Source of the DNA: an uncultured Elusimicrobia bacterium
GTDB taxonomy: Bacteria > Elusimicrobiota > Endomicrobiia > Endomicrobiales > Endomicrobiaceae
Assembly: GCA_900321055.1 (NCBI GenBank)
Contig: ONUQ01000165.1
Location: 1-12,081, forward strand
Reading direction: 5' to 3'
Length of the DNA stretch: 12,081 nt
A program made the position numbers and the translations under genes. This document shows, piece by piece, positions 4,904 to 11,140 of this stretch (position 1 is its first letter; the number at the start of each line of letters is the position of its first letter). A model generated the notes under the pieces. That model saw nothing but the letters and a program-made list of their open reading frames with translations. It made no database searches and was not told where the DNA came from.

Positions 4904-4918
4904 GAGGAGTTTATTATA
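4904..4918 (+). promoter_or_regulatory. Strong Shine-Dalgarno plus candidate noncanonical start (ATT/ATA)
   Basis: GAGGAG at 4904-4909 is one of the best Shine-Dalgarno sequences in the window, yet no ATG/GTG/TTG follows at usable distance. ATA at 4916-4918 lies 7 bases after the GGA core, and ATT at 4913-4915 lies 4 bases after it. Other genes here have 3-10 bases between GGA and ATG, most often 7-8. The first canonical start in frame is TTG at 4952, 42 bases beyond the site. Confidence 0.6.
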
Positions 4919-5932
4919 AAAAAACATATTTTTAAAATTATTTTTGGTTATTTGGTTAGTATATTATTAATATATTTGTGTATAAGAAATATAGATTTTA
5001 CAAAATCAATATCATTATTAAAAAATGCAGATATAGGATTAATAGTATTAGGCATAGTTGTTTATGTAATTTCTTATCTTGTTAGAAGTTATAGATGGGA
5101 TTATATTCTTGCTCCACTTAGGAAAATGAAATTGTTTCAAAGTTTTTATTATTTAGTTTTTGGTTTCTTTATGAATAATATTTTGCCATTAAGGTTAGGA
5201 GAATTTGTTAGAGCTATTGTTGCCGGGAACAAATTGCATATTTCTAAAAGCGGAGTTTTTGCAACAATTGTTGTAGAAAGATTGATGGATATTATAATTT
5301 TTATAATATCATTTTTTTTAATTGCATTGTTTGTTCCAAATATTCCTAATTGGTTACAAAAATCATTTATAGCTTGTGCATTAATTTTTGGAATTGTATT
5401 TATAGCTTTATTTTTTATATCAAGGGACGAAAATAAATTTTTAAAGCTTTTATATAAATTTAATTTATCAACAAAATTAACCGAAATAATAAAAACGGCT
5501 TTTTTGAAGTTTGCAAGCGGACTAAAATTTTTTCGCAATAAAAAATTATTTACTGTAGTTTTTATTACTTCAATAATAGTTTGGATTATAGAGGCTTATG
5601 CTTATAAAATATTATTTTTAGCTTTTGGTTTACATGTTTCCGCAATACAGTGTTTATTTGTTATTGTAACGACCGGTATTGCTACAATGTTACCGACAGC
5701 CCCCGGTTTTATAGGTGCAATAGAAAGTGTAGGAATGATTACACTTGGAATATTTTCAATAGAAGAAACAATTGCTTTTACAGCTATGGCTGCAATACAT
5801 TTTACGGAAATGATGGCAATTTATATTTTAGGCTTTATTGGAATGATTAAAGAAAAAATATCTTTTTCGGATTTATTCAGTTTTGCATTAAAAAAAAACA
5901 GTAGTAATAATGAGAGTATAAATGAACAATAA
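4916..5932 (+). CDS. UPF0104 / LPG-synthase-TM-type membrane protein (flippase-like)
   Basis: This polytopic protein of the lysylphosphatidylglycerol_TM/UPF0104 (YbhN-like) family has no catalytic lysyltransferase domain. Family marks are SYLVRSYRWDYIL, NNILPLRLGEFVRA, ATIVVERLMDIIIF and LPTAPGFIGAIESVG. A conventional call starts at TTG 4952 (326 residues), but that cuts the first membrane helix in half and leaves the GAGGAG at 4904-4909 unused. Starting at ATA 4916 gives 338 residues beginning (M)KKHIFKIIFGYLVSILLI, a normal basic start plus complete first helix. No ATG, GTG or TTG occurs in frame between the upstream stop at 4877 and 4952. The end overlaps the following GT2 gene by 11 bases. 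Family members accompany glycosyltransferases and are suspected in lipid or lipid-sugar translocation. That role is inferred, not shown. Confidence 0.85.
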   Translation: MKKHIFKIIFGYLVSILLIYLCIRNIDFTKSISLLKNADIGLIVLGIVVYVISYLVRSYRWDYILAPLRKMKLFQSFYYLVFGFFMNNILPLRLGEFVRAIVAGNKLHISKSGVFATIVVERLMDIIIFIISFFLIALFVPNIPNWLQKSFIACALIFGIVFIALFFISRDENKFLKLLYKFNLSTKLTEIIKTAFLKFASGLKFFRNKKLFTVVFITSIIVWIIEAYAYKILFLAFGLHVSAIQCLFVIVTTGIATMLPTAPGFIGAIESVGMITLGIFSIEETIAFTAMAAIHFTEMMAIYILGFIGMIKEKISFSDLFSFALKKNSSNNESINEQ

Positions 5933-10216: not shown

Positions 10217-10723
10217 TTATATACCATTAGCTGTTAAATATACGGAGTGCGATAACTTCTCAAAAAATTGTTGATAAACTTTCGTATCTGTAATTTGTTC
10301 TACAGCAAAAATATTTCCGCGATTATCCCAACTTTTTCTTGTAAACAATACTCTAACTTTTATTTTTTTATCTTTAGTAGGAGTTGTTACAATATTTACA
10401 TAAAATTTTTGAACATCCTCATAAACCGTATTAGAGCCAAGCAAAACGAGCATTGCAACTTTGCCTGCTTTATTACCTGCTTCTCTATTTTTTTCTGCGG
10501 TAATCATACCTAAATTAACATCCGACTCTTTAATCGTATACCCCAAATCTTGCAATACTTGAGCACTTGCCGTTAACAGTTCTTTTTCATTTTGTGTTTC
10601 AAAAACCCTTGTTTCTATATTTCTTCGTTCCAAATAATCTTTATCCAAAGTATATAGCTTTTTATAATTTGTACAACCTGCAAATAAACCAACAGTTATT
10701 AAAAATATTATTATTCTTTTTAT
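10217..10723 (-). CDS. Lipoprotein of unknown function, tandem paralogue B, noncanonical start
   Basis: A conventional call begins at TTG 10648 (143 residues, no signal peptide). In the same frame the 25 codons upstream encode (I)KRIIIFLITVGLFAGC followed by TNYKKLYT, a textbook lipoprotein signal with Cys at residue 17. The mature protein therefore certainly extends upstream of 10648. No ATG/GTG/TTG is available between the in-frame stop (10736-10738) and 10648. The first plausible codons are ATA at 10723 or ATT at 10726, 8 or 5 bases after a GGA core. With ATA the protein has 168 residues. The domain matches paralogue A throughout, plus an extra NKAGKVAMLVLLGSNTVYEDVQ stretch. An alternative is a one-base frameshift after the ATG at 10736. 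The function is unknown; it is probably a surface or periplasmic lipoprotein in a three-lipoprotein operon. Confidence 0.82.
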   Translation of the reverse strand: MKRIIIFLITVGLFAGCTNYKKLYTLDKDYLERRNIETRVFETQNEKELLTASAQVLQDLGYTIKESDVNLGMITAEKNREAGNKAGKVAMLVLLGSNTVYEDVQKFYVNIVTTPTKDKKIKVRVLFTRKSWDNRGNIFAVEQITDTKVYQQFFEKLSHSVYLTANGI

Positions 10724-10738
10724 AATTTTATTCCATTA
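10721..10738 (-). promoter_or_regulatory. Stop-reinitiation junction with candidate ATA/ATT start
   Basis: Read on the minus strand, the BamE-like gene's TAA overlaps an ATG (TAATG), which opens only a two-codon ORF (ATG GAA TAA). GGA at 10734-10732 then precedes ATT (10726) and ATA (10723). A reinitiating ribosome could use these to make the full-length lipoprotein B. Confidence 0.5.
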
Positions 10739-11140
10739 GAAACTTGAAGTTCTGTAAGAGAAATCTCTAACCTTACCTTCTTTATCAAATTTTATTATTA
10801 TTGTTAATGTTCTTTGAGAAGAATTATACTTGTTTTTTTCAGATCCTGCTCCTACAACTACAAGCCAAACTCCTTTGGATGAAGAAGATGAATCTATTTG
10901 AGTTGACATTTTGTCATAAACCCAAGACTCTCTTCTTTCTTCATCAGTTGTTACAATATTTGGTGAACCTAATATTTCAACAACTTCTGCGGATGTCATA
11001 CCGATTTTTATTTCTCTTTGAACTTTACCAACACTGATGTTGTCGGTGGCATTTGCTCCTGAATTGTTCTGTGTTGAAGCACAAGAAGTAATAAACAAAA
11101 CACAACTCAACAAACAAAAGAAACTTACTAATTTTTTCAT
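10736..11140 (-). CDS. SmpA/OmlA (BamE-like) domain lipoprotein
   Basis: The 134-residue protein has a lipoprotein signal MKKLVSFFCLLSCVLFITSC with lipobox ITSC (Cys20). It is followed by a short serine/asparagine linker and a SmpA/OmlA-type domain: IKIGMTSAEVVEILGSPNIVT ... RRESWVYD (about residues 44-76), then a beta-rich end TLTIIIKFDKEGKVRDFSYR. The pattern 'G-M-t-x-x-E-V...lG-x-P ... W-x-Y-d' is shared by BamE, a lipoprotein accessory of the BAM outer-membrane assembly complex, and by other small lipoproteins. The precise BamE role is therefore not assured. AAGGAGA lies just before the ATG, and an extended -10 promoter at 11169-11177 would give a leader of about 20 bases. It heads the lipoprotein trio. 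Confidence 0.85.
   Translation of the reverse strand: MKKLVSFFCLLSCVLFITSCASTQNNSGANATDNISVGKVQREIKIGMTSAEVVEILGSPNIVTTDEERRESWVYDKMSTQIDSSSSSKGVWLVVVGAGSEKNKYNSSQRTLTIIIKFDKEGKVRDFSYRTSSF

Follow-up and report, generated by a model that had tools for sequence, protein, structure and literature searches.

A Plausible AUA Start Codon in a Lipoprotein Gene and a Conserved, Predicted AUH Start in a Flippase Gene of an Uncultured Elusimicrobia Bacterium

Gene Organization of the Locus

The window, i.e., the whole stretch of 12,081 nucleotides analyzed here, is contig 197 of a 215-contig, 1.27 Mb genome (G000; family Endomicrobiaceae, order Endomicrobiales), which was 87% complete and had a G+C content of 28.9% (261 kb sampled, ~one-fifth of the genome). 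On the minus strand, three small consecutive genes were located between two ORFs that, from their translations, we take to be pyrF-like and pyrE-like. They comprised a BamE-like lipoprotein gene (10736..11140; Pfam BamE, PF04355, E 5.1e-06), the gene for lipoprotein B and a third lipoprotein gene. The lipoprotein B reading frame was intact from an ATA codon onward (10217..10723, minus strand, 168 codons plus stop). The Pfam search with lipoprotein B gave no match at E 0.01, and a protein search of phage records gave no match. The third lipoprotein showed weak kinship to lipoprotein B (28% over residues 7–82). The plus strand carried a gene for a flippase of the LPG_synthase_TM family (4916..5932; Pfam PF03706, E 1.3e-44), the predicted start of which was the ATA at 4916–4918.

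The lipoprotein B frame ran TAA (10738–10736) TGG AAT AAA ATT (10726–10724) ATA (10723–10721) AAA AGA, with GCA GGT TGT (Cys, 10675–10673) and TTG (10648–10646) farther downstream. The TAA also terminated the BamE-like gene, so both genes lay in one frame, with 12 bases between the BamE-like stop and the ATA. The frame was open over 172 codons and stop-free. No ATG, GTG or TTG was present between the stop at 10736–10738 and TTG 10648, the first canonical start (10646..10648, minus strand), which was eight codons past the lipobox cysteine; frame reading thereby confirmed the original prediction of a gene with no canonical start before that TTG. The ATG at 10736–10734 was out of frame for lipoprotein B and met a stop after two codons. 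The signal peptide with its lipobox cysteine (10673..10723, minus strand; IKRIIIFLITVGLFAG followed by C) was read by eye from the translation and was alike in the relatives G005 and G001. Its short positive N terminus, hydrophobic stretch and lipobox Cys fitted a bacterial lipoprotein (IKRIIIFLITVGLFAGC, by eye). At 10733–10738 (minus strand), a second in-frame stop followed the BamE-like gene in the relatives (TGA in G005, TAA in G001) and was TGG in G000, in which the two frames were parted by a single stop.

Origin of the ATA Codon in Lipoprotein B

Of the 61 genomes, 7 (G000 among them) carried a homologue of lipoprotein B. The nearest relatives found, G005 and G001, shared 86 and 76% identity with it, and in the alignment both had ATG at the exact codon that reads ATA (10723–10721) in the window. 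The leader of G005, TAA TGA AAT AAA ATT ATG AAA AAA, aligned without gaps to TAA TGG AAT AAA ATT ATA AAA AGA of the window. The other four homologues likewise had ATG ahead of the signal peptide; an AUH start (AUA, AUU or AUC) was thus not conserved in this gene. The homology included the signal peptide (query residues 2–172, 86% in G005), which indicated that the residues upstream of TTG 10648 belong to the protein, as had been proposed.

The ATG in the relatives indicated that the ancestral start was ATG and that G000 changed to ATA. Since G005 and G001 showed ATG at the same codon, the ATA start was not a chance observation. By this alignment, the window ATA arose by substitution, with no indel, and it looks like a private variant of G000 among the genomes compared, one genome representing its species. 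The original prediction had named an ATG at this codon in relatives as evidence against it; the ATG now found there marked a private substitution and left the use of AUA possible. Between AUA and AUU, both of which had been offered as initiators, the aligned ATG in two relatives favoured AUA, and the nearness of the BamE-like stop fitted the proposed coupling.

Initiation Signal and Proposed Mechanism

A weak Shine-Dalgarno (SD)-like GGA (10732..10734, minus strand) was located 8 bases before the ATA; G005 and G001 lacked it at the corresponding position. This GGA alone stood in for a strong, well-spaced SD. The computed SD pairing was −3.3 kcal/mol in the window, −1.6 in G005 and 0.3 in G001. 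Almost no SD preceded the ATG in these two relatives, so the gene there already seems to rely on some other aid, coupling being the likeliest. The 12-base leader of G000 differed from that of G005 at one base, and this change (TGA to TGG) yielded the GGA. The new GGA, whose computed pairing is weak, may be of slight help in compensating for the lost AUG.

We propose that a single G-to-A change at the third base turned the AUG of lipoprotein B into AUA, and that the ordinary initiator tRNA would read the AUA at 10723–10721 by pairing with two of its three bases. Initiation would occur at a lowered rate with a reduced yield. The main supply of ribosomes would come from the BamE-like gene, the stop of which lies 12 bases upstream, with minor aid from the new GGA. 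On balance, it is rather likely that lipoprotein B, having lost its AUG, is still translated from AUA at a reduced rate through coupling to the BamE-like gene. What can be read directly from the sequence is the substitution and the intactness of the frame; the initiation, yield and coupling are predicted from them. With so weak an SD, the protein output from an AUA may be very small.

Selection on the Frame and Alternative Explanations

The dN/dS of lipoprotein B against G005 was 0.229–0.237 (two alignments); its neighbours, the third lipoprotein and the BamE-like gene, had values of 0.179 and 0.233, respectively. Of the codon changes on the G000 branch, 8 were synonymous and 5 nonsynonymous (p 0.0017, one-sided, vs. 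neutral site numbers). These counts, which leave the ATA undated, indicate that lipoprotein B was under selection for a large part of the period since the lineages diverged. The ATA substitution could be very recent, in which case the signal of selection would have built up before it.

Alternatively, the start may have been lost: the AUA would then be practically silent and the gene on its way to becoming a pseudogene in this strain. The relatives kept ATG, the SD was weak, and matches were found in just G000, G001 and G005 of the 11 genomes of the genus (its own included, several of them incomplete), which suggested that lipoprotein B is dispensable in the genus. However, the frame had neither stop nor frameshift and its dN/dS resembled that of its neighbours; we regard loss of the start as unlikely, though worth keeping in mind. 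An artefact of assembly or strain mixture, in which the draft consensus holds a minority or erroneous A, appears improbable. A single base decides the case in a genome of 215 contigs and 87% completeness, but single-base consensus errors are generally rare, and the flippase ATA on the same contig recurred in other genomes, which argued that the contig is not generally wrong.

A shorter cytoplasmic protein could begin at TTG 10648, the first canonical start codon, and would lack the signal peptide; this is very doubtful, because the kin have a Cys-bearing signal peptide with their own ATG upstream. Readthrough of the BamE-like UAA, producing a BamE-lipoprotein fusion, would make use of the shared frame and of the missing second stop in G000 (TAA TGA in G005 and TAA TAA in G001, with TGG here). 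Yet UAA is poorly read through, and the lipoprotein signal peptide would be buried inside the fusion, so that this reading is more doubtful still. A one-base indel, by which one skipped base would set the ATG at 10736 in frame (M-E-K-I-I-K-R), is barely credible given the G005 leader, which had the same length, the same succession of ATG, one codon and TAA, and an in-frame ATG at a later codon. The reading we prefer is reduced translation from AUA.

infC, Initiator tRNA and Genetic Code

The infC gene, which encodes IF3, is known to start with AUU, AUA or AUC, and the start serves IF3 autoregulation. In the kin, infC started with AUA in 10 of 11 cases and with AUU in G012; in G009 and G012 a canonical codon (TTG and GTG, respectively) was present farther upstream in frame, and the start choice there rests on the SD. 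The SD of the kin infC was very strong (−10.7 kcal/mol or below). At loci L096–L104 and L106, the AUA followed an SD of the GAGGGGGAT or GAGGAT type, and the third codon varied (ATT, ATA or ACT) with the AUA invariant. No infC was found in G000, which is 87% complete.

Among the 30 tRNA matches listed for G000, no initiator tRNA was recognized. In the kin, the initiator tRNA genes found on stretches of G003, G006 and G010 had a CAU anticodon, C1:A72 and an A-U at 29–41 (positions by eye). Initiator tRNAs usually carry three G-C pairs in this region, 29–41 being the first. In the kin sequences (L063, L137 and L154) A-U replaced G-C at this first pair, which may bear on start fidelity. An altered initiator tRNA was considered and was unseen in the kin, the anticodon being normal.

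A code in which AUA means Met was ruled out. The 644 internal AUA codons of G000 were aligned with codons for I (289), V (154), L (64) and M (36), and the 591 internal AUU codons used as a control with I (326), V (112), L (54) and M (31). Internal AUA thus behaved as Ile, like the AUU control, and the lipoprotein B start involves no new genetic code.

A Conserved, Predicted AUH Start in the Flippase Gene

The other startless gene of the original prediction proved to be a real case. The flippase ATA (4916–4918) stood 6 bases behind a GAGGAG SD (4904..4909, plus strand), with a computed pairing of −8.1 kcal/mol. Homologues were found in 12 of 13 and in 28 of 31 genomes; the G023 copy, cut by a contig end, was left out, which gave 39 informative starts. 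Searches in the families of G040 and G038 added no genomes. Three of the homologues, L068 (G013), L083 (G021) and L091 (G040), had one stop within the search match.

At the start column, AUH was found in 17 of 39 homologues (ATA 10, ATT 5 and ATC 2; hand tally, with adjacent ATT codons indistinguishable in some ATT rows) and AUG in 22. The AUH starts were spread over four families of the order, and both their conservation and a well-placed SD fitted the pattern of genes with AUH starts. A few rows call for comment. In G012, ATG was followed by TTG; G008, counted as ATA, had three in-frame TTG codons four to six codons upstream with no SD; and G043, G000, G005 and G010 had a TTG with a weak SD some codons downstream. 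The median SD pairing was −7.3 kcal/mol for AUH and −6.25 kcal/mol for AUG (p 0.003), a comparison uncorrected for kinship and in which the AUH sites had been chosen partly by their SD.

A tree of the flippase proteins, from which the first residues were omitted, required 3 switches between AUH and AUG, and 8 when all four codons were distinguished; the tree was midpoint-rooted and several deep branches were weakly supported. The AUG starts formed three groups: one of three distant rows, which may be paralogues, and two others, with 3 and 16 rows, nested within the AUH part of the tree. AUH would thus be the parsimonious old state of the flippase start. The gene is a further candidate for a conserved AUH start, with initiation predicted, and merits more attention than lipoprotein B.

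Scan of the Lineage

Two cases in 12 kb had been taken to suggest a lineage-wide habit. We scanned ~1.04 Mb of six genomes by pair tests in 160 homologous families, 59 of which had a G000 member. The scan flagged 48 of 419 tested ORFs, and the flagged rows were inspected singly: flippase 4, prfB 3, lipoprotein B 1, repeat-region frames of G010 4, a split-gene fragment 1 and others 35. In the 35 others, an ATG came 10 to 21 codons after the alignment began. Five of them had an AUA or ATT whose SD pairing reached −5 kcal/mol or was stronger, and in each an ATG that paired about as well or better followed within one to three codons. Some of the 35 ATGs had a weak SD; all 35 were read as probably ordinary ATG starts. 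The gene that is presumably prfB, a known frameshift gene, showed a stop followed by a startless frame in G000, G006 and G010 (L033, 1599–2646, minus strand), and its flagging indicated that the method detects such cases.

The clear cases with no canonical start in the 160 families were flippase, lipoprotein B and prfB. In the one-fifth genome sample, 48 ORFs of G000 lying outside the window could be tested, and no near-cognate start was seen among them. Five were flagged, namely prfB, the fragment and three ORFs whose ATG lay 11, 11 and 17 codons into the alignment; the 43 unflagged were taken in bulk. Near-cognate starts escape the scan wherever a canonical codon happens to lie upstream in the same frame. 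The habit was therefore unsupported in this sample, and beyond the flippase and lipoprotein B no clear case appeared; what did emerge was one old conserved AUH start, that of the flippase, together with the AUA of infC in the kin. As far as the sample goes, the two cases in 12 kb would be a local coincidence.

Comparison with Known Systems

AUU, AUC and AUA are known non-canonical starts; a review sets non-canonical starts with a 3′-G apart, as these escape discrimination (PMC4611024). In Staphylococcus aureus, four non-canonical sites are described, AUA in infC, ccpN and citZ and AUU in cvfC1, and reporters at three tested AUA/AUU sites gave ~10% of AUG in poor medium (PMC13009471). Extended SDs are predicted there for infC, cvfC1 and ccpN, and the citZ AUA is conserved in strains of the NCTC 8325 lineage (PMC13009471). 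Judged by their titles and opening abstract lines, none of the papers found in literature searches dealt with AUA starts in Elusimicrobiota.

The citZ gene resembles lipoprotein B in that its AUA is seemingly lineage-bound, with a reduced reporter yield for citZ (PMC13009471). The citZ site, however, was mapped and tested, whereas lipoprotein B is known from sequence and has a weak SD. Lipoprotein B shares with the known class of IF3-discriminated AUH starts, exemplified by infC and ccpN, the lack of an in-frame canonical start ahead of a conserved N terminus. Both it and infC have AUH, but infC is conserved with a very strong SD and the lipoprotein B AUA is not conserved. The flippase is closer to infC in AUH conservation. 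ccpN (AUA) and cvfC1 (AUU) resemble the flippase in having a conserved non-canonical start, with an extended SD there and a well-placed SD here (PMC13009471 for the S. aureus genes); the flippase differs in being another gene, in another phylum, with a third base that varies among A, U and C.

Implications

A gene finder restricted to ATG, GTG and TTG would call lipoprotein B with its signal peptide missing and would shorten the flippase. The strength of a start can affect fitness, as described for the GTG start of lacI (PMC11445065). Across the order, the third base of the flippase start varied among A, U and C, and within the orthologue clade G apparently came back twice; this pattern suggests selection favouring a weak start. 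For start-codon attenuation beyond infC, the flippase gene is a natural test case.

The AUA start of lipoprotein B is plausible from the sequence comparisons. With its private change from AUG to AUA and its probable coupling, the gene may show a first step. It is a tentative idea, and one we would not lean on, that the order keeps a small set of genes (infC, the flippase and, as a recent recruit in this species, lipoprotein B) on AUH starts for a joint response to IF3 level or growth state; if such a joint set were true, lipoprotein B would show a start of this kind being gained.
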